Of a DNA stretch of 64,000 nt, positions 40,862-51,135 are shown one piece after another. The position numbers and the translations under genes were made by a program. The notes under the pieces are model-generated. The model was not told the origin of the DNA, searched no databases, and saw nothing but the letters and a program-made list of their open reading frames with translations. Every line of letters starts with the position of its first letter. Position 1 is the first letter of the stretch. The stretch comes from Hyphomonadaceae bacterium (lineage in GTDB: Bacteria; Pseudomonadota; Alphaproteobacteria; Caulobacterales; Hyphomonadaceae), in NCBI GenBank assembly GCA_024743315.1, contig JANSWU010000001.1, positions 558,001 to 622,000 of the forward strand, read 5' to 3'.

Positions 40862-41454
40862 TGCTCCAAGATCCCCCTCGTCCGCAAATAGTCCAGCAAG
40901 GGTAATAAAGGCAGTCCCAGGATCGAAAAATAATCGCCCTCAATGCGCGAGAAAAGTTGCGCCCCGAGCTTTTCCAATTGATAGGCACCGACCGTGCTCA
41001 GCAGGGCTTCGCCACAGGTTTCGATATAACGCCCGATAAACGCCTCGCTCAGCGGACGCACGGTCAATTTCGGGCGCGCCAGATAGCGCCAGACGGGCTC
41101 GCCATTTTCGGCAATCAGGATCGCGGTCTCAAGCGTGTGGGATTTCCCGGAGAGCCGACGCAAATGGTTGGCCGCGTCATCAAGATTGGCCGGTTTGTCG
41201 AAGGCCGCGCCGTCCAGATTGAGCATTTGGTCGCCACCAATCACAAGACCAGGCTCGGCGCGGGACACTTTGATCGCCTTCAATTCTGCCAGCTGCATCG
41301 CTTGGTCGCGAACGCTCACGCCCTGCGCTCGCATGGCCTGCTTGGCTGTGTCTTCATCGACATTCGGTTTAATCGACCGGGCTTCGACTCCCGCCCCAGA
41401 CAAAAGAGCACGGCGGCTGGCGCTGCCGGACGCTAACACAATCCCACTCATCAA
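40858..41454 (-). CDS. maf: Maf-like nucleotide pyrophosphatase
   Basis: 198 residues. The ASGSASRRALLSGAG start, the IGGDQMLNLDG block, and LRRLSGKSHTLETA and VGAYQLEKLGAQLFSRIEGDYFSILGLPLLPLL are the Maf/HAM1 signature. It removes pyrophosphate from non-canonical nucleotides (dTTP/UTP type). It overlaps both ppsR (41451-41454) and aroE. Confidence 0.94.
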   Translation of the reverse strand: MMSGIVLASGSASRRALLSGAGVEARSIKPNVDEDTAKQAMRAQGVSVRDQAMQLAELKAIKVSRAEPGLVIGGDQMLNLDGAAFDKPANLDDAANHLRRLSGKSHTLETAILIAENGEPVWRYLARPKLTVRPLSEAFIGRYIETCGEALLSTVGAYQLEKLGAQLFSRIEGDYFSILGLPLLPLLDYLRTRGILEQ

Positions 41455-42275
41455 ACGAAGCCTCGGCGTTCATTTAACTTATTGAGGATGGCGGCGGCGG
41501 TTTCTTCGACGCTGCGCCGCGACACATCAATCACCGGCCATTTATTGCGCTGGAACAGGCGGCTGGCCTCGGTCACTTCGGCGCGAACTGCTTCCTCATC
41601 GACATAGTCGGTTTTGGAAACCTCATTCAGCGAGCGAAGCCTCTGATTGCGAATCTGCAGCAGGCGCTCGACCCCGATTTTAAGCCCGACCACCATCGGC
41701 ACCTCCAGCTCCTCGACCAAGCTTGGCAGCGGAATACCAGGTACCAAGGGAATATTGCCGGCCTTAACCCCGCGATTTGCCAGATAGACGCACGTCGGCG
41801 TTTTCGAGGTCCGGCTCACCCCAAGCAAAACAACATCGGCATCGACCAGCCCGGTGACATTCTGGCCATCATCATGATTGAGAGCGAAATCAATCGCCGA
41901 AATGCGCCGGAAATAATCTTCGTTGAGAGCGTGTTGGCCGGCAATGCGTTCACTCGCCGCAATCCCCAAATGCCGCGACAACATATGGATGGATGGGTCG
42001 AGCACTGGCAGGGTCTGGATCCCACGCTGCCGGCAAAACTGCTCCAGCTTACGACGCAGGTTCTCATCCGAGATTGTATACCAGACGACCCCGGGCGCCG
42101 CCTCGATCTCCGCCATCACGCGATCAAGCTGGCGTTCGGAACGGACCAAATAATAATTGTGTTCCAAGGGGATGGTGCGATCGAATTGCGCCGCCGCTGC
42201 CCGCATCACCGCGTTCAGCGTCTCGCCCGTCGAGTCCGAAACCAGGTGGACATTAAAATAGATTGCAAGCCGCAT
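41451..42275 (-). CDS. ppsR: Pyruvate, phosphate dikinase regulatory protein (DUF299 kinase/phosphorylase)
   Basis: 274 residues from ATG 42275 (MRLAIYFNVHLVSDSTGET). P-loop-like GVSRTSKTPTCVYLANRG and the DUF299 blocks NHDDGQ and IGVERLLQIRNQRL are clear. This bifunctional enzyme phosphorylates and dephosphorylates PPDK or PEP synthase. It is the first gene left of the origin, as in Caulobacter. An upstream in-frame start (42329) is less likely. Confidence 0.93.
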   Translation of the reverse strand: MRLAIYFNVHLVSDSTGETLNAVMRAAAAQFDRTIPLEHNYYLVRSERQLDRVMAEIEAAPGVVWYTISDENLRRKLEQFCRQRGIQTLPVLDPSIHMLSRHLGIAASERIAGQHALNEDYFRRISAIDFALNHDDGQNVTGLVDADVVLLGVSRTSKTPTCVYLANRGVKAGNIPLVPGIPLPSLVEELEVPMVVGLKIGVERLLQIRNQRLRSLNEVSKTDYVDEEAVRAEVTEASRLFQRNKWPVIDVSRRSVEETAAAILNKLNERRGFV

Positions 42276-42333
42276 ATTCGTCCTGACACGTTTTAAAAAG
42301 TCTCTGCCGGAGCGATACGAATTCGACAAGCCC

Positions 42334-42353
42334 TGTGGATGTGTTGTGGAAAT
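42334..42353. promoter_or_regulatory. Pair of DnaA-box-like sequences in the origin
   Basis: TGTGGATGT (42334-42342) and TGTGGAAAT (42345-42353) resemble the reverse DnaA box TGTGGATAA with one or two mismatches each and stand in tandem 11 bases apart. A third weak site TTTTCCACG is at 42557-42565 in the opposite orientation. Confidence 0.5.
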
Positions 42354-42367
42354 GTCATTTAAGCCTC

Positions 42368-42407
42368 GAATCCGACTCTGAATCGCACAATTGGACGAAT
42401 CTGACTC
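42368..42407. promoter_or_regulatory. Cluster of five CcrM (GANTC) methylation sites
   Basis: GAATC 42368, GACTC 42374, GAATC 42380, GAATC 42397 and GACTC 42403, five sites in 40 bp; a sixth (GACTC) is at 42567. Random expectation is about one per 256 bases. Adenine methylation at GANTC by CcrM marks replicated DNA in Caulobacter relatives. Confidence 0.8.
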
Positions 42408-42450
42408 CCCCTGTTGTTAGCCTGTTCCAAACATCCGTTCTGACCCGAAA

Positions 42451-42465
42451 TTAACTCAAAATTTA
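42451..42465. promoter_or_regulatory. Degenerate second CtrA-like site
   Basis: TTAACTCAAAATTTA, a TTAA-N7-TTTA arrangement with one mismatch in the second half-site, 31 bases from the perfect CtrA box. May be a lower-affinity site. Confidence 0.45.
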
Positions 42466-42481
42466 CCCTTTTTTCAGATGG

Positions 42482-42496
42482 TTAATGAAGTCTTAA
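42482..42496. promoter_or_regulatory. Perfect CtrA binding box in the origin
   Basis: TTAATGAAGTCTTAA is exactly TTAA-N7-TTAA, the CtrA consensus, 131 bases before the hemE start. In Caulobacter, CtrA bound at such sites blocks replication initiation in swarmer cells. Confidence 0.82.
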
Positions 42497-42626
42497 TCGT
42501 GCGCCGAATTGGGGAATGCCTGTGCATTTCAGTGGGACAATTACACCCAAATGAGATTTTCCACGAGACTCACCGCTTAATAATGATAAGGCCTTTCAGG
42601 TAATTTTTTGGGTTGGTGATTTTTCT

Positions 42627-43667
42627 ATGGTTGAGCGCAGTGCATCACGGTTTCTTCAGGTTCTTAGCGGAAAGCCGAGTTCCCCAGTTCCCCTCTGGAT
42701 GATGCGACAAGCCGGACGGCATTTGCCGGAATATCTGGAGCTCCGATCCCAGGCAAAGAACTTTCTCGACTTTTGTTATTCTCCTTCCATGGCGACAGAG
42801 GCGACGCTTCAACCGATCCGGCGCTATGATATGGATGCCGCGATCCTGTTCGCCGACATTCTGCTCGTCCTGGATGCCATGGGTCTAGATGTACGGTTCG
42901 AAAAAGGTGTGGGTCCAATTGTCGAAACCGTGGAAACCGAGGCCGACCTCACCCGCACATCGGCCGAGACGTCGGTTCAACGCCTGTCGCCGGTCTATGA
43001 AACCGTAGAACGCGTGCGCGCTGGATTAGCAGATGACAAAGCTCTGATCGGATTTTGCGGGGCGCCTTGGACGGTCGCCCTTTACGCTATTGAGGGCCGC
43101 GGCGGCACAGATAAAAGCTCGGCGCGTGGCTGGGCCTATTCTAAACCGGACCTGTTAGAGAAACTCCTCGCTCGCCTGGTCGAGATCTCAGCCCATTATC
43201 TCGCCGCGCAGGTCAAAGCTGGCGCTGATGCTTTGATGATCTTTGAATCGTGGGCAGAAGGCTTGCCGTCAGACCTGTTCCAGACGCTCGTCGTCGAGCC
43301 GAATGCAGCTCTGGTCAATCGCTTGCGCGAACTTGGCGTGACGGTGCCGATCATTGGATTCCCGCGCGGCGCTGGAACCATGATCGGATCTTATGCGGGC
43401 CAGGTGCCAATCAATGGCATAGGCTTGGACACAGCCATCGACCCTGCGCATGTGGTCAAAGCGGTTCCAGAAACGATCGCGGTTCAGGGCCATTTGGATC
43501 CGGTCCTATTAATCGCGGGTGGCGAAGCTATGGATCGCCGAGTGCGCGAAATCCTGGGCGCCTATAAAGGCCGACCCCACATCTTCAATCTTGGCCATGG
43601 GGTTCGTCCGGAGACCCCGATCCCTCACGTTGAGCGTGTGGTCCAATTGGTGCGGGAGCACAGCTAA
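42627..43667 (+). CDS. hemE: Uroporphyrinogen decarboxylase
   Basis: 346 residues. PLWMMRQAGRHLPEYLELR, the YDMDAAILFADILLVLDAMGLDVRF block, GFCGAPWTVALYAIEG, FESWAEGLPSDLF and IFNLGHGVRPETP are the UroD core, with the catalytic Asp in ILFADI. It makes coproporphyrinogen III in heme synthesis. It is the first gene on the right of the origin. No good Shine-Dalgarno is visible before ATG 42627 (TGATTTTTCTATG), as in some Caulobacter genes. Confidence 0.98.
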   Translation: MVERSASRFLQVLSGKPSSPVPLWMMRQAGRHLPEYLELRSQAKNFLDFCYSPSMATEATLQPIRRYDMDAAILFADILLVLDAMGLDVRFEKGVGPIVETVETEADLTRTSAETSVQRLSPVYETVERVRAGLADDKALIGFCGAPWTVALYAIEGRGGTDKSSARGWAYSKPDLLEKLLARLVEISAHYLAAQVKAGADALMIFESWAEGLPSDLFQTLVVEPNAALVNRLRELGVTVPIIGFPRGAGTMIGSYAGQVPINGIGLDTAIDPAHVVKAVPETIAVQGHLDPVLLIAGGEAMDRRVREILGAYKGRPHIFNLGHGVRPETPIPHVERVVQLVREHS

Positions 43668-44229: not shown

Positions 44230-45525
44230 ATGCCTGATACCGCACCCGAAATTGATCTCCCGTCCCAAGTCTATCTGCGCGAGCTCAAAGCCAAATCCCC
44301 CACCGATCTCCTCGCTTATGCCGAAATGCTGGATGTCGAGAACGCATCTTCACTGCGCACGCAGGACATGTTGTTCGCCATTCTCAAAGAATTGGCCGAA
44401 CAGGAAGTCGAGATCATTGGCCGCGGTGTGGTTGAGGTCTTGCAAGACGGGTTCGGGTTCCTGCGCTCGCCGGAGTCGAATTATCTTGCCGGCCCGGATG
44501 ATATTTATGTCAGCCCAAAGGTCCTGAAAAAAGCCGGTGTTAAAACCGGCGATACGGTTGAAGGCCCGATTGCAGAGCCGGGTGAGAATGAACGCTATTT
44601 CGCCCTGACCGATGTCAGCTCGATCAATTTCGAAGACCCGGAAAAAGCACGTCAGAAAGTCCACTTTGACAATTTGACCCCCCTTTATCCTGAAGAGCGA
44701 CTGCTCATGGAAGGCCAGGATCCGACGAAAAAAGATCGCTCCGGCCGTGTCATCGATATCGTGTCGCCGATCGGGAAAGGTCAGCGCGCCTTGATCGTGG
44801 CGCCGCCGCGGACCGGTAAGACGGTCTTGCTCCAGAACATCGCGGCATCCATCGAAGAGAATCATCCGGAATGCTATCTCATTGTTCTGCTGATCGACGA
44901 GCGTCCCGAAGAGGTGACCGACATGAAGCGCTCGGTCAAAGGCGAAGTGATTTCGTCCACTTTTGACGAGCCAGCCAGCCGTCACGTGGCGGTGGCGGAA
45001 ATGGTCATCGAAAAAGCCAAGCGCCTGGTCGAGCATGGCCGGGATGTGGTCATCTTGCTCGACTCGATTACCCGTTTGGGCCGTGCTTATAACACCTCTG
45101 TTCCAAGTTCCGGCAAAGTCCTGACAGGCGGTGTGGATGCCAATGCGTTGCAACGTCCGAAACGGTTCTTCGGGGCGGCGCGCAACGTTGAGAATGGCGG
45201 CTCCCTGACAATTGTCGCAACCGCCTTGATCGATACCGGCTCGCGTATGGACGAGGTTATCTTTGAAGAATTCAAAGGCACCGGTAACTCTGAAATCGTG
45301 CTTGATCGCAAAGTTGCCGACAAGCGGACCTTCCCAGCCATCGATATTATGAAGTCCGGCACCCGGAAAGAAGAGCTGATCACCGACAAGGTCCAGCTCC
45401 AGAAAATCTATGTCTTACGTCGGATTCTAAATCCGATGGGGACGGCCGATGCGATCGAATTCCTCTTGGACAAACTCAAGCAGACCAAGACGAATGATGA
45501 ATTCTTCGAGGCCATGAAGAACTAG
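44230..45525 (+). CDS. rho: Transcription termination factor Rho
   Basis: 431 residues from ATG 44230. RNA-binding OB fold ([26 protein letters not shown]), P-loop [17 protein letters not shown], the [15 protein letters not shown] block, Q-loop ([22 protein letters not shown]) and R-loop are complete. The hexamer terminates transcription and would act on genes here without intrinsic terminators. A TTGACC at 44122 may be a -35 element. The frame is open further up but lacks homology. Confidence 0.98.
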
Positions 45526-45527
45526 GC

Positions 45528-46850
45528 ATGGCCTTGCGCCAGGACACGATTTGCGCACTTGCCACGGGACAACCGCCAGCGGCGATTGCGACGCTCCGGA
45601 TTTCAGGTCCTTCCACCAGTCAAATCATCGAAAAACGTTTATCAATCAAGAGTTTAACGCCAAGGCGGGCGACTCTGGTCGATCTCCGGGATGCCGCCGG
45701 AGCCCTTATTGATTCCGGTCTAGCCATATATATGCCGGGTCCCAACAGCTATACGGGCGAAGACACGCTTGAGCTGTCCTTGCATGGCGGCCGGATGATT
45801 ACCGAACTGGCGCTGCAATCGATCATGGCTGCGGGCGCCCGATTAGCCGATCCGGGAGAATTCACCCGCCGCGCATTCGAGGCCGGCAAGATGGATCTGA
45901 CCCGTGCCGAGGCCGTGGCCGATCTGATCGACGCTGAAAGCGAAGCCCAATTGGGTCAAGCCTTGAAACAGATGGATGGCGCGCTTGAAGATTTGTATTC
46001 TAGGTGGCGCGGGCAATTAACAGACTGCCTCGCTTTGCTGGAGGCGAGCATCGATTTTCCCGATGAAGAAGACGCGCCAGATCGCGTCGATGGCCCGGTC
46101 AGCGACCGGCTCGAGGCGCTGGTCGCTGACCTCAATCATGCGTTGGCCGAGGGCAATATTACCGAGCGTATCCGCGATGGCTTCAAGATCGCGATCCTCG
46201 GAAAACCGAATGCCGGCAAATCCACCCTGTTGAATCAACTTTCCAAACGCGATGCGGCGATCGTCACCGACATCCCCGGTACGACCCGCGATATTGTCGA
46301 AGTGCGACTGGTCATGGGCGGCTATCTGGTCTGGCTGTCAGATACAGCCGGTTTGCGCGAAACCACGGACAGGGTTGAAGCTGAGGGTGTCCGGCGCGCC
46401 GAGAAGGCGGCCGCCGAATCGGACTTGCGCATCTGGCTCTATGATGCCCGGGACTCCTTTGATGTCGCACAGGTCAAACCCGGCGATCTGATCGTCGCGA
46501 ACAAGTCAGACCTGGTCGCACGTCTGGATGTTTCACGTGAAACAATGGTGATCAGCGCAAAGGATGGCGAGGGAGTTGCGCAGGTCGAACAGGCGATTGT
46601 TTCGCGCCTCAAGGGCATGACCCAGGGTTTGACCGCCCCGATGATCACCCGGGCCCGTCATCGCCAAGGCATTGAGCGCGCGCGACAACATCTCGACCGT
46701 GCCCGTGAACATATGGCGCAAGGTGCGGGGGCTGAGTTTACGGCCGAAGAAGTTCGCCTCGCGAGTCGAGAGCTCGGAACGCTGACCGGGCATGTCGATC
46801 CTGAAATGGTGCTCGGGGCTGTGTTTTCTTCCTTTTGCATCGGCAAATAG
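45528..46850 (+). CDS. mnmE: tRNA modification GTPase MnmE
   Basis: 440 residues, starting 2 bases after the rho stop. Tetrahydrofolate domain (MALRQDTICALATGQPPAAIATLRISG), helical domain, G domain with GKPNAGKSTLLNQLSKRDAAIV, DTAG (SDTAGLRET), NKSD and SAKDG, and the terminal Cys motif FCIGK. With MnmG it makes the xm5U34 wobble modification. A perfect parS site is embedded at 46529-46544 in the linker following the NKSD motif. Confidence 0.97.
   Translation: MALRQDTICALATGQPPAAIATLRISGPSTSQIIEKRLSIKSLTPRRATLVDLRDAAGALIDSGLAIYMPGPNSYTGEDTLELSLHGGRMITELALQSIMAAGARLADPGEFTRRAFEAGKMDLTRAEAVADLIDAESEAQLGQALKQMDGALEDLYSRWRGQLTDCLALLEASIDFPDEEDAPDRVDGPVSDRLEALVADLNHALAEGNITERIRDGFKIAILGKPNAGKSTLLNQLSKRDAAIVTDIPGTTRDIVEVRLVMGGYLVWLSDTAGLRETTDRVEAEGVRRAEKAAAESDLRIWLYDARDSFDVAQVKPGDLIVANKSDLVARLDVSRETMVISAKDGEGVAQVEQAIVSRLKGMTQGLTAPMITRARHRQGIERARQHLDRAREHMAQGAGAEFTAEEVRLASRELGTLTGHVDPEMVLGAVFSSFCIGK
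46529..46544. promoter_or_regulatory. parS site in mnmE
   Basis: Perfect TGTTTCACGTGAAACA, the canonical ParB-binding 16-mer. It encodes the peptide VSRET within the GTPase. Confidence 0.96.
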
Positions 46851-46904: not shown

Positions 46905-48785
46905 ATGAGCACGGCTCTGGATTTTGATGTGATCGTGGTCGGCGGCGGCCATGCCGGTTGTGAAGCCGCCTCTGCGGCTGCGCGTATGGGCGCGCGGACG
47001 GCTTTGATCACACATAAAATCGAAACCATCGGCGAGATGTCATGCAATCCGGCGATTGGCGGATTGGGGAAAGGCCATCTCGTACGCGAGATCGATGCGC
47101 TCGATGGCTTGATGGCGCGCGTCGCCGATCAGGCGGGTATTCAATTCCGGATGCTCAATCGCTCGAAAGGACCTGCGGTCTGGGGGCCACGGGCGCAGAT
47201 TGATCGGAAACTGTATCGCGAGGCGATGCAAAAAGAGATCCTCAATCACGACAATCTCGACGTCATTGCGGATGGCGTTGAGGACGTGCTCGTCAAAAAC
47301 GGAATTGTCGCAGGCGTGATTGGGGAATCGGGCTCAACTTACAAAAGCGACGCGGTGGTCATCACGACCGGGACCTTCTTGAAAGGCATCATCCATCGCG
47401 GCGCCGAACGCATTCCGGCGGGCCGCGTCGGGGAGAAACCAGCGATTGGCCTCGCCGAGCGGCTCTACGCGCTTGATCTGCCCATAGGGCGATTGAAAAC
47501 CGGGACACCCGCGCGCTTGAACGGCAATACGATCGACTGGGATCGGTTGGAGATGCAGCCCGCTGATGATGTTCCGATCCCATTTTCTTTCGCGAACAGC
47601 CAAATCCATGTGCCGCAGATTGCGTGCGGGATCACCTATACCAATCCAGAGGCGCACGCGATCATCGCTGAGAACATCAATCAATCCGCGGTCTATTCAG
47701 GGGCGATTGCCGGGCGTGGCCCGCGCTATTGCCCCTCCATCGAAGACAAGATCCATCGTTTTGCCGATAAGACCCGCCACCAGATCTTCCTTGAACCGGA
47801 AGGCTTGGAGGATGACACGGTCTATCCAAATGGGATTTCGACATCGCTTCCACGGGACGTCCAGGATGCCTTTGTCCGAAAGATTGAGGGATTGGAGAAT
47901 GTCGAGATCCTCGAATACGGCTATGCGATTGAATATGATTATGTCGATCCGCGGGCCCTGGACTTCGGTCTTCAAGTGAAAGTCCTGCCCGGCCTGTTCC
48001 TGGCAGGGCAGATCAATGGCACGACTGGATATGAAGAAGCCGGGGCGCAAGGACTTGTCGCCGGTTTGAACGCGGTGCGTTTTACGCGCGGCGAAGACAA
48101 TGCCACGTTTGACAGAGGTGAAGCCTATATCGGGGTTTTGATAGATGATCTGATCACGCGCGGCGTGACGGAGCCGTATCGGATGTTCACCTCACGCGCG
48201 GAGTACCGGCTGTCTTTGCGGTCAGACAATGCCGACCAAAGACTGACTCCGCGTGGCATCGAGCTCGGCTTGGTCGGACCGGGTCGCGCTGAAATGTTTC
48301 ACGTGAAACACTCAGAACTCGAAACGGGTCGAACCTTGATGCAAACCGCGACTCTGACACCGAACGAAGCGCAGAAGCGCGGTTGGAAAGTCAATCAGGA
48401 TGGCCAGCGTCGCAGCGCCTGGGACTATCTCGCCTATCCGACCATCTCAATGACTGACATCGAATCAGCGTTTCCGGAGATCGCGGCCCTGTCCGGTTCG
48501 ATCAAGGCGCAATTGGAAATTGAAGCCATGTATGCCGGCTATATCGAACGCCAGAAGGAAGACGTTGCCGCCTTGCGGCGGGAAGAGGCTTTGAAACTTC
48601 CGGCCGATCTCGATTATGCGGCGGTTGGAGGTCTGACCAACGAAGTCCGGGCCAAACTCGAGCAAATCCAACCCGCCACACTCGGTCAGGCTGGGCGAAT
48701 TGAGGGTATGACTCCGGGCGCCTTGACGGCCCTGCTCGCCTTTGTCCGCCGCCGACCGGATCGAAAGCGCGTAGCGAATGACTGA
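46905..48785 (+). CDS. mnmG: tRNA uridine-5-carboxymethylaminomethyl modification enzyme MnmG
   Basis: 626 residues. FAD loop [54 protein letters not shown] ([15 protein letters not shown]) and [24 protein letters not shown] are standard. It works with MnmE. A perfect parS site (48295-48310) falls in the codons for FHVKH near residue 467. The gene overlaps rsmG by 8 bases at its 3' end. Confidence 0.97.
48295..48310. promoter_or_regulatory. parS site in mnmG
   Basis: Perfect TGTTTCACGTGAAACA, encoding MFHVKH in the protein. Confidence 0.96.
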
Positions 48786-49410
48786 TCGCGACGGATTTGG
48801 CCCAGCGCAATTCCAATCCGAGACAAATGTTTCACGTGAAACATTGGAGAGGATCGTCCGGATCGTTGATGAGCTCGATGCCTGGCGGCACAAAATCAAC
48901 CTGATCGGGCCGTCCGAATTTGATCAGGTCTGGCGCCGCCATGTTCTGGACTCCTGGCAGCTCTTCGATCTGATCCCGGATCCGGGGCTGACCGTTGATT
49001 TGGGATCCGGTTCTGGCTTCCCGGCACTGATTCTGGCTGCGGGATTCGCGTCTACGGAGTCCCATATGACCATGATTGAGAGCGTCGGAAAGAAATGCGC
49101 CTTTCTGCGCGCGGCGGTTCAGGCAGCGGATTTGAATGCCAAAGTCATCCAGGCTCGGGTCGAGGCGGTTAACCCTGACAAAGCCCATTGTGTCACGGCG
49201 CGCGCCTTCGCGCCGCTACCAAAATTGCTAGAATATGCGGCGCCCTGGTTCAAAAACGGGGCTTATGGCGTTTTTCCAAAAGGCCGCCGCTGGCAAGAGG
49301 AATTGACGGCGGCGCAGGAATCTTGGAGATTCTCTTATGAAGCGATTCCCAGTGTGACCGGGGATGGGGCTATTTTGAAGATTTCGGAGGTTTCACGTGT
49401 CGACTCCTAA
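48778..49410 (+). CDS. rsmG: 16S rRNA (guanine(527)-N7)-methyltransferase
   Basis: 210 residues. [36 protein letters not shown] site [15 protein letters not shown] and the [15 protein letters not shown] block are RsmG (GidB). It makes m7G527 in 16S rRNA. It overlaps mnmG (48778-48785) and parA (49397-49410). A parS site sits in codons 17-22, giving VSRET. Confidence 0.96.
48828..48843. promoter_or_regulatory. parS site in rsmG
   Basis: Perfect TGTTTCACGTGAAACA in the 5' part of rsmG. Confidence 0.96.
49390..49399. promoter_or_regulatory. parS half-site at the parA start
   Basis: GTTTCACGTG matches one half plus the centre of parS and ends in the parA GTG start codon; the other arm (TCGAC) does not match. 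Weak ParB binding and autoregulation are conceivable. Confidence 0.4.
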
Positions 49411-50209
49411 CACTCGCATTCTCGCGATTGCCAATCAGAAAGGCGGGGTCGGGAAAACGACCACGTCAATCAATCTCGGCACGGCCCTCGCCGCTGTCGG
49501 CCGGAAAGTCCTAGTGATCGATTTCGATGCCCAGGGAAACGCCTCAACCGGGCTTGGAATTACCCGTCCGGAACGTCAGCTCACCACGTATGATGTGGTT
49601 GTCCACAATGAATTTCTCGGTGATGCGGTTCTCAACACTCTGGTGCCGCGCCTCGATATTGTCCCCGGCGATGAGAACCTGGCCGGGGTCGAAACGGAAC
49701 TGTCGAGCGACCCGCACCGATCTTATCGCTTGCGCAATGCGCTGCGCACTTATGTCCAGGAAGCGCAGGCCCGCGGCAAAACCGAGTATGATTATATCCT
49801 GATCGATTGCCCGCCTTCCTTGTCAGCCCTGACCATCAATGCCATGACGGCGGCGGACTCATTGCTGGTCCCGCTGCAATGCGAGTTCCTGGCTTTGGAA
49901 GGCTTGAGCCAGCTTTTAAAAACGGTCGAACTTGTGCGCAGCGGCCTCAACCCGGATCTCGACATCCAAGGCGTGGTGCTGACCATGTATGATCGTCGCA
50001 ACAATCTCTCCGACCAAGTGGCGGATGAGGTGCGCTCAGTGCTCGGCGCGAAAGTCTACAACACAGTGATCCCGCGAAATGTTCGTCTGTCTGAGGCGCC
50101 TAGCTTCGGCAAGCCGGCATTGCTGTATGATTATCGTTGCCCGGGCAGCGAAGCTTACATTCGCCTTGCCTCAGAAATGCTGCAGCGTGAACGCGCGCTT
50201 CGAGGATAG
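49397..50209 (+). CDS. parA: Chromosome partitioning ATPase ParA
   Basis: 270 residues with GTG start at 49397 (CGGAGG 5-9 bases upstream). Deviant Walker A ANQKGGVGKTTTSINLGTAL, Walker B YDYILIDCPPSLSALT, and a VIDFDAQGNASTGLG A'-motif. It forms the nucleoid-bound gradient that segregates ParB-parS. It overlaps rsmG by 14 bases and precedes parB by 2 bases. Confidence 0.98.
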   Translation: MSTPNTRILAIANQKGGVGKTTTSINLGTALAAVGRKVLVIDFDAQGNASTGLGITRPERQLTTYDVVVHNEFLGDAVLNTLVPRLDIVPGDENLAGVETELSSDPHRSYRLRNALRTYVQEAQARGKTEYDYILIDCPPSLSALTINAMTAADSLLVPLQCEFLALEGLSQLLKTVELVRSGLNPDLDIQGVVLTMYDRRNNLSDQVADEVRSVLGAKVYNTVIPRNVRLSEAPSFGKPALLYDYRCPGSEAYIRLASEMLQRERALRG

Positions 50210-50211
50210 AT

Positions 50212-51135
50212 ATGTCGCCAGATCCATCCCGGGGAAAACAAAGCCGGCTCGGCAAAGGCCTCTCAGCGCTGATCGGCGAAGTCGAAGGCGTTGGCCTCGC
50301 GCCCGCGCCCGATGAACCGCGCACCACGGACGCGCCCTCAGGAAACGTTCCGGAGTTCGCTGTTTCAGACATCCGTCCGAACCCGGCTCAGCCGCGGCGG
50401 AGTTTTTCTGAAGCTGAACTTGAAGAACTCGCCGCCTCGATCAAAACGCGTGGTGTCTTGCAGCCCATCTTGCTTCGGCCGGATCCAGATGCGCCGAACC
50501 AGTTTCAGATCGTTGCCGGCGAACGGCGTTGGCGCGCCGCTCAGCGGGCCGGCCTGACAACCATTCCTGCAGTGGTCCGCGATATGGACGAGCTACAATT
50601 GCTCGAAGTCGGGATTATCGAAAACGTTCAACGTGAAGACCTCAACCCGATTGAGGAAGCCGAAGCCTATGGCGCCTTGATCAAGCGCTTTGGGCGAACC
50701 CAGGAGAACCTGGCCGAAAGCGTCGGCAAGTCGCGGGCTCATATTGCGAATACAATGCGGTTGCTCAATCTCGGCGAGTCAGCGCGGGAACATTTGCGTC
50801 AGGGCCGAATTTCGGCCGGGCATGCCCGGGCGGCGCTTGGCGCGCCGGATCCGGATCCGGTGGTCGACATGGCGGTTGCGAAAGGTCTGTCGGTTCGTGA
50901 AGTCGAGTCCTTGGTCAAGCGTCTCAAAGATGGCGGCGCGCTCGATACGGTCGCCAAAAAAGTGCAACAGCACGACAAGGATGTCGACACGGAGGCCCTG
51001 GAGAGCGATTTGGCGCGGGTGCTCGGCTTGAAAGTCGACATTCGCCAGGGCCTTAAGGGCGGCGAGTTGCGGATCAAATATGGCGATCTTGAACAATTAG
51101 ACGAATTGTGCCGTCGCCTGACGGCAAAACGCTGA
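50212..51135 (+). CDS. parB: Chromosome partitioning CTPase/DNA-binding protein ParB
   Basis: 307 residues. N-terminal KQSRLGKGLSALIG (ParA-stimulating box), CTPase motif GERRWRAA, ENVQREDLNPIEEAEAY, helix-turn-helix (RTQENLAESVGKSRAHIANTMRLLNL) for parS, and the C-terminal dimer domain. It loads at parS and spreads as a CTP-dependent clamp. Last gene of the conserved origin block; the usual alphaproteobacterial leuS/holA set does not follow. Confidence 0.98.
   Translation: MSPDPSRGKQSRLGKGLSALIGEVEGVGLAPAPDEPRTTDAPSGNVPEFAVSDIRPNPAQPRRSFSEAELEELAASIKTRGVLQPILLRPDPDAPNQFQIVAGERRWRAAQRAGLTTIPAVVRDMDELQLLEVGIIENVQREDLNPIEEAEAYGALIKRFGRTQENLAESVGKSRAHIANTMRLLNLGESAREHLRQGRISAGHARAALGAPDPDPVVDMAVAKGLSVREVESLVKRLKDGGALDTVAKKVQQHDKDVDTEALESDLARVLGLKVDIRQGLKGGELRIKYGDLEQLDELCRRLTAKR

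Follow-up and report, generated by a model that had tools for sequence, protein, structure and literature searches.

A probable chromosomal origin with CtrA boxes and a dense array of CcrM (GANTC) sites between ppsR and hemE in a Henriciella-type alphaproteobacterium

The window analyzed here, a 64-kb stretch of contig C4 (C4:558001-622000), belongs to a genome of 3,312,933 bp in 8 contigs, whose HemE protein finds its best named relatives in Henriciella MAGs (84% identity at most), with further Henriciella and Hyphomonas next. Our analysis centered on the 351 bases, devoid of genes, in which the initial annotation had noted an AT-rich block. This description proved accurate: the interval between the ATG of ppsR (42275) and the ATG of hemE (42627) is gene-free, and its GC content of 0.430, against a mean of 0.574, falls within the lowest 0.13% of 351-bp windows in the 219,245 bp of genome sampled. 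An alternative TTG start in the ORF list would extend ppsR to 42329; the ATG was taken as the start because the bases upstream of it align poorly among relatives. The gap and the genes and sites around it are as follows.

42276 to 42626, no strand: candidate oriC, ppsR/hemE intergenic gap of 351 bp (synteny, AT-richness, blocks conserved across 29 aligned origins, GC-skew change)
41451 to 42275, minus strand: ppsR, left flank, pyruvate, phosphate dikinase/PEP synthase regulator family (NCBIfam NF003742, 319.7 bits, cut-off 225; below the cut-off of the narrower PpsR model NF049928)
42627 to 43667, plus strand: hemE, right flank (TIGR01464, 372.4 bits, cut-off 302.95)
46529 to 46544, no strand: perfect parS, TGTTTCACGTGAAACA, within mnmE (exact match)
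48295 to 48310, no strand: perfect parS within mnmG (exact match)
48828 to 48843, no strand: perfect parS within rsmG (exact match)
49397 to 50209, plus strand: parA (ParA-type ATPase domains PF13614 and PF01656, adjoining parB; NCBIfam models below their cut-offs)
50212 to 51135, plus strand: parB (TIGR00180, 198.8 bits, cut-off 58.45)

The gene order, secB-dnaQ-coaE-aroE-maf-ppsR, the gap, and then hemE-hemJ-rho-mnmE-mnmG-rsmG-parA-parB (dnaQ and hemJ being assigned from exonuclease and UPF0093 domains together with position), has the layout of a Caulobacter-type origin, namely a gap between ppsR (RP001-type) and hemE with parAB and parS nearby. The Caulobacter origin adjoins hemE and is repressed by CtrA at TTAA-N7-TTAA-type boxes, and the neighbor of this origin (Cori) opposite hemE is an RP001-type gene. 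The three perfect parS sites lie 3.9, 5.7, and 6.2 kb to the right of the gap, and TGTTTCACGTGAAACA is the parS sequence bound by ParB of Hyphomonas neptunium (PMC6650430). All three perfect parS sites of the window were located inside coding sequences and none between genes.

GC skew was read from samples of one contig and of a closed relative (G065). On contig C4, all 20 samples as far as the gap, the one spanning it among them, were negative, and 5 of the 8 farther on were positive; the cumulative minimum within the window fell at 44385, approximately 1.8 kb past the gap; the initial annotation had expected a change of sign here, and the sampled skew does change sign in this region. Of twenty samples of G065, 9 of the 10 to one side of hemE were negative and 8 of the 10 to the opposite side positive. 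Skew remained slightly negative in the sample 11 kb past the origin and was positive in the following one, 171 kb away, so that the change lies no more than about 170 kb from hemE; the reverse change was found at 1.10-1.28 Mb, roughly half a chromosome away. The marker-frequency maximum of H. neptunium is reported close to hemE (PMC6650430), in a species where skew and DnaA boxes alone gave no clear origin.

The possibility that the gap is a mere divergent ppsR/hemE promoter region under CtrA and CcrM regulation, with the origin elsewhere, for example by dnaA, draws on the frequent occurrence of CtrA and GANTC sites at promoters, the location of dnaA on a different contig, and the weakness of the GC skew. 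It is nevertheless highly improbable, and we rejected it, because the H. neptunium marker frequency is maximal close to hemE and because parS, parAB, and the skew change all lie at the gap region. An origin beside dnaA, which is on contig C1, was rejected as well, as skew, parS, and the published mapping indicate hemE. The proposal of the initial annotation that the gap is oriC is well supported because synteny, parS, GC skew, the phylogenetic footprint, and the published H. neptunium marker frequency (PMC6650430) all speak for it. The gap is thus very probably the oriC of a Henriciella-type alphaproteobacterium, a marine bacterium related to Caulobacter, under CtrA control.

The phylogenetic footprint was built from 29 aligned origins, 15 Henriciella-type and 14 Hyphomonas, with G100 and G110 left out. 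The features run, in the order of the alignment, from DnaA-like pair 1 through the CcrM-site array, the CCTGTTCC block, CtrA boxes 1 and 2, and pair 2 to TTTTCCACG and CTTAATAATGATAAG.

42332 to 42341, minus strand: left box of DnaA-like pair 1 (CCTGTGGATG), TGTGG in 15 of 15 Henriciella-type origins and TGTGANTC in 12 of 14 Hyphomonas origins
42344 to 42352, minus strand: right box of DnaA-like pair 1 (TTGTGGAAA), spaced 11 bp from its partner and conserved in the alignment
42368 to 42407, no strand: CcrM-site array, GANTC at 42368, 42374, 42380, 42397, and 42403
42421 to 42428, plus strand: CCTGTTCC block, GTTC core kept in the 29-row alignment
42451 to 42465, no strand: CtrA box 1 (TTAACTCAAAATTTA), which has one mismatch; 27 of 28 relatives have a box with at most one mismatch here (best match over 22 positions)
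42482 to 42496, no strand: CtrA box 2 (TTAATGAAGTCTTAA), a perfect box spaced 31 bp from box 1; 24 of 28 relatives have a box with at most one mismatch here (best match over 23 positions)
42509 to 42517, no strand: left box of pair 2 (TTGGGGAAT), opposite TGTGANTC in all 14 Hyphomonas rows of the alignment
42519 to 42528, minus strand: right box of pair 2 (CCTGTGCATT), which reads TGTGGA in the majority of relatives (alignment)
42557 to 42565, plus strand: DnaA-like box (TTTTCCACG) beside the presumed unwinding element (motif scan, alignment)
42567 to 42571, no strand: sixth GANTC, in the spacer between the TTTTCCACG box and the trio-like element, in the same column in 5 of 15 Henriciella-type and 3 of 14 Hyphomonas origins
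42576 to 42590, plus strand: CTTAATAATGATAAG, DnaA-trio-like element and candidate unwinding site, conserved in the alignment

Both CtrA boxes named in the initial annotation, a perfect TTAA-N7-TTAA (box 2) and a second with one mismatch (box 1), are present. The perfect form occurs once in the window and 14 times in the 3,312,933-bp genome, and 5,000 dinucleotide shuffles of the 351 bp gave P values of 0.010 for a perfect box and 0.0026 for a perfect box plus at least two boxes within one mismatch. At least one perfect box was found in 26 of 31 gaps of the family, and in 9/12, 4/12, 7/13, and 4/13 gaps of the other four families; outside the order, 7 of 28 loci had one. CtrA boxes at the origin are accordingly not unique to the family; their fixed place is what is particular. 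The relatives missing box 2 (4 of 28) are all Hyphomonas, and in two Hyphomonas origins, L135 (G036) and L141 (G041), an inverted repeat around AGGCGAGC occupies the alignment position where the box is missing.

The ctrA gene, on whose presence the initial annotation had made its proposal depend, was found in this genome (NF045991, 414.1 bits, cut-off 350) and in 31 of 31 genomes of the family, and gcrA (on C1) and chpT-family and sciP-family genes or domains are also present. Another match to the GcrA domain, incomplete and interrupted by an in-frame stop, occurs at L113 (G000:C2:246366-246536) in addition to the full gene on C1. CtrA ChIP in H. neptunium revealed binding next to the origin (PMC7200025). 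CtrA control of the present origin is likely because the box is rare, the places are conserved, ctrA is present, and the H. neptunium signal lies next to ori. Silencing of initiation by CtrA in a single cell type, as the initial annotation inferred, would go a step beyond these data. Depletion of DivL, CckA, or ChpT in H. neptunium raised the DNA content. A search of the open-licence literature for Henriciella together with CtrA returned no paper.

The Cori of Caulobacter crescentus is comparable with the present origin in its place beside hemE, its CtrA boxes, and its weak DnaA boxes, but it carries five CtrA sites, whereas two boxes within one mismatch, 31 bp apart, were found here. The gap also differs in length, measuring 459-586 bp in the sampled Caulobacteraceae (11 with ppsR found) against 351 bp here. 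In the origin of Rickettsia prowazekii, CtrA sites were reportedly described by Brassinga in 2002. In a review (PMC4468827), CtrA sites are said not to have been seen in origins outside Caulobacters, Rickettsia perhaps excepted, and some marine Caulobacter origins are described as having probably acquired CtrA sites independently. The same review reports that Caulobacter whose five Cori sites all had reduced affinity for CtrA showed only a mild disturbance of replication when grown in the laboratory, an effect that argues against a simple CtrA on/off switch.

The DnaA-like 9-mers of the initial annotation fared unevenly. Their count did not exceed chance, as TTATCCACA matched the gap at 3 places within two mismatches against 1.15 expected (P 0.10) and had no match in the gap within one mismatch, so that score alone was rejected as evidence for DnaA boxes; the blocks are credible because they are conserved in the 29-row alignment, not because of their score. 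The complement of the left member of pair 2, TCCCCA, resembles the Caulobacter W-box. The CTTAATAATGATAAG element can be read as four NTN triplets, and DnaA-trio elements are known in other bacteria (PMC8235120). A trio-like pattern, drawn from the consensus of the Henriciella/Hyphomonas group itself, occurred in 24 of 31 origins of the family versus 0 of 50 from the four other Caulobacterales families. Right after the trio-like element, a short inverted repeat, CGCCCTGWCGGGC, was visible by eye in 14 of 14 Hyphomonas origins (e.g., L120, L134, L138) and in 0 of 15 Henriciella-type origins.

The initial annotation had named CcrM in its title though it listed none of its sites; the gap holds six GANTC, five of them within the 40 bp from 42368 to 42407. 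Three of the array sites follow one another at 6-bp steps, forming a phased triple, GANTCNGANTCNGANTC, that occurs once in 3.31 Mb, and five GANTC so close together appeared in 0 of 5,000 shuffles. No five GANTC within 60 bp were found elsewhere in 219,245 bp of this genome or in 200,000 bp of G065 (its origin excluded), while at least six GANTC in 351 bp occurred at four other places in the 219,245 bp (window positions 49029-49348, L095, L100, and L102). The GAATCYGACTC pair is not exclusive to origins, as it occurred 51 times in 23 of 31 genomes, 19 of these in the origins of 14 genomes, with 12 occurrences for the backward control word. At 17 GANTC per kb (20.2/kb by a crude ORF rule) against 1.95/kb for the genome, the gap is far denser in sites than the genome, and a gene for a presumably replication-linked methylase is present, both being features of methylation-controlled origins. 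The ccrM product matched NF050803 with 607.8 bits over nearly its full length, below the cut-off of 830, and carries N6_N4_Mtase and RAMA domains; a CcrM protein was found in 31 of 31 genomes of the family.

For comparison, we used 80 of 147 other hemE-matching genomes, comprising all 30 of the same family and 50 of 117 others. One of them, the Caulobacteraceae-type G012 (L153), has no ppsR within 1 kb upstream of hemE and may have a rearranged neighborhood; the 500 bp upstream of its hemE was used as the gap. The phased triple was present in the gaps of 4 of the 80 relatives, the nearest ones, and five GANTC in 60 bp in 7 of 80. The median GANTC density was 19.7/kb in the family (n = 31) versus 5.7, 8.5, 2.1, and 5.9/kb in the other four Caulobacterales families (n = 12, 12, 13, and 13), and 4.5/kb in 28 loci outside the order, which were chosen by title from 80, all with ppsR adjacent, the highest being L060 (titled only Alphaproteobacteria) at 15.6/kb. 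The ranges overlap, with a family minimum of 8.4/kb and a maximum of 16.9/kb among the other Caulobacterales, and the Mann-Whitney P of 8.6e-13 overstates independence because the rows are related. The tight phased array is thus kept only in the nearest relatives, whereas GANTC density is kept across the family. Four loci titled Hyphomonadaceae (L019, L024, L027, and L030), with about 53% HemE identity, held 3-6 GANTC in 329-355 bp and probably belong to another of the sampled families.

Within the family, Henriciella-type origins (n = 15) averaged 15.3 GANTC/kb and Hyphomonas origins (n = 14) 24.0/kb, and GANTC was the most frequent of eight same-composition palindromes in the origins of both genera; one Henriciella-type origin, G090, had only three. 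Sites fused to TGT/ACA made up 61 of 119 in Hyphomonas (5.8 expected) and 0 of 81 in Henriciella-type origins (3.2 expected). The left box of pair 2, which is TGTGANTC in every Hyphomonas origin, bears GANTC in 3 of 15 Henriciella-type origins, and TGTGANTC stood at the left boxes of either pair in 0 of 15. Some GANTC columns are common to both genera and many are not, so that density is kept while positions turn over. Henriciella-type and Hyphomonas origins reach high GANTC density by different routes; the present origin has a separate GANTC array and no fused boxes.

These patterns bear on what the sites might do. One reading accepts the gap as oriC under CtrA control and assigns GANTC a transcriptional role only, with GcrA and CcrM regulating the divergent ppsR/hemE promoters and initiation unaffected. 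The presence of gcrA, the enrichment of GANTC in intergenic DNA of most alphaproteobacterial chromosomes (PMC8116508), and the other GANTC-rich places in the same genome are compatible with it, as is the normal DNA content of C. crescentus without ccrM, where CcrM is not required for initiation control (PMC3973325). It must, however, accommodate a gap density of 20.2/kb versus 3.3/kb in all sampled intergenic DNA of this genome (2.9/kb without the gap; crude ORF rule), the Hyphomonas sites fused to TGT/ACA, two of which stand at the places of DnaA-like boxes, and a sigma-70 consensus scan that yielded no promoter, a weak point as the consensus may not apply here. The scan for promoters and terminators found nothing. 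Sampled intergenic DNA of G065 also gave 3.3/kb by the crude ORF rule, with one 160-bp intergenic stretch, holding three GANTC, at 18.8/kb. A purely transcriptional role is a serious possibility, falling somewhat short of an even chance. Alternatively, the enrichment in oriC might be a by-product of the evolution of DnaA boxes or other protein sites and have nothing to do with methylation. Half of the Hyphomonas GANTC overlap TGTG cores, and the overlapping word GTNAC is also raised in that genus (7.7/kb), yet the Henriciella-type origins reach 15.3/kb with no TGT/ACA fusion among 81 sites, and we regard a by-product as unlikely.

We infer that CcrM methylation may tune DnaA loading at this origin, and methylation may help time replication in the Henriciella/Hyphomonas group. 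A stronger version, which we put forward tentatively and consider rather doubtful, is a CcrM-based switch in this group, in which hemimethylated oriC would be unable to reload DnaA until CcrM acted late in the cycle, alongside CtrA. Such a switch, with GANTC packed into oriC and built into the Hyphomonas DnaA boxes (TGTGANTC), might provide once-per-cycle control of the Dam/SeqA type, of which Caulobacter makes no use; this part is equally tentative. The origin of Escherichia coli holds many Dam (GATC) sites and is served by SeqA. It is alike in having many sites of a replication-linked adenine methylase inside the origin and unlike in that the pairing there is GATC with Dam, and here GANTC with CcrM. 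The need for full methylation of Cori to fire is an assumption of a Caulobacter model (PMC2217572), and C. crescentus and its near relatives are noted to carry several GANTC motifs in their origins (Gonzalez 2014, citing Shaheen 2009). The negative result in C. crescentus lacking ccrM need not carry over because the sampled Caulobacteraceae origins are comparatively GANTC-poor, at 5.5/kb in 12 origins versus 17/kb here.

In the mechanism that we propose, DnaA would assemble on the two pairs of weak boxes with 11-bp spacing and on the box beside the trio-like AT-rich element, at which the duplex would open. Phosphorylated CtrA, bound to two boxes about three helical turns apart and between the box pairs, would presumably block DnaA assembly. 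After initiation, hemimethylated GANTC could lower or delay re-initiation until late remethylation by CcrM, which is the weakest step of the scheme.

The origin and its CtrA boxes are of a known kind, whereas a search of open-licence literature turned up no paper that treats the GANTC density of these origins or their DnaA boxes fused to CcrM sites. The comparison adds a second family whose origins keep CtrA boxes in fixed positions, and the idea of licensing by methylation, modelled and then not found in Caulobacter, becomes testable anew in origins far richer in GANTC. The ori of H. neptunium is alike in family, in the marker-frequency maximum close to hemE, in CtrA ChIP next to ori, and in parS; it is unlike, as seen through the 14 sampled Hyphomonas-type origins, in that the left DnaA-like boxes are mostly TGTGANTC, which is absent in the 15 Henriciella-type origins. 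Since some CcrM sites in Hyphomonas stand in place of DnaA boxes, the methylation question can be put to the test in H. neptunium, a species with published depletion strains and ChIP (PMC7200025).

A further GANTC-rich site lies at L102:4680-4830 (G000:C4:464680-464830), about 136 kb to the left of oriC, in the interval on which an HTH gene and a gene weakly matching PilZ converge, with hisI next. It has no CtrA box within one mismatch, and its neighbors were not found in the guessed syntenic stretches of G065, G016, G026, and G075. An alignment of the oriC array against 825,863 bp of Henriciella/Hyphomonas sequence (our own samples, G065, G016, G026, and G075, with the relatives' origins left out) ranked the site second-best with a score of 31 versus 29 for the next, a likeness that is not significant by itself. 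Five GANTC within 130 bp occurred at this site and oriC only in the same 825,863 bp. The site packs six GANTC into 113 bp together with TGATCCACA, CTGTGGACA, and CCTGTTC, and it could be a datA/DARS-like DnaA site.
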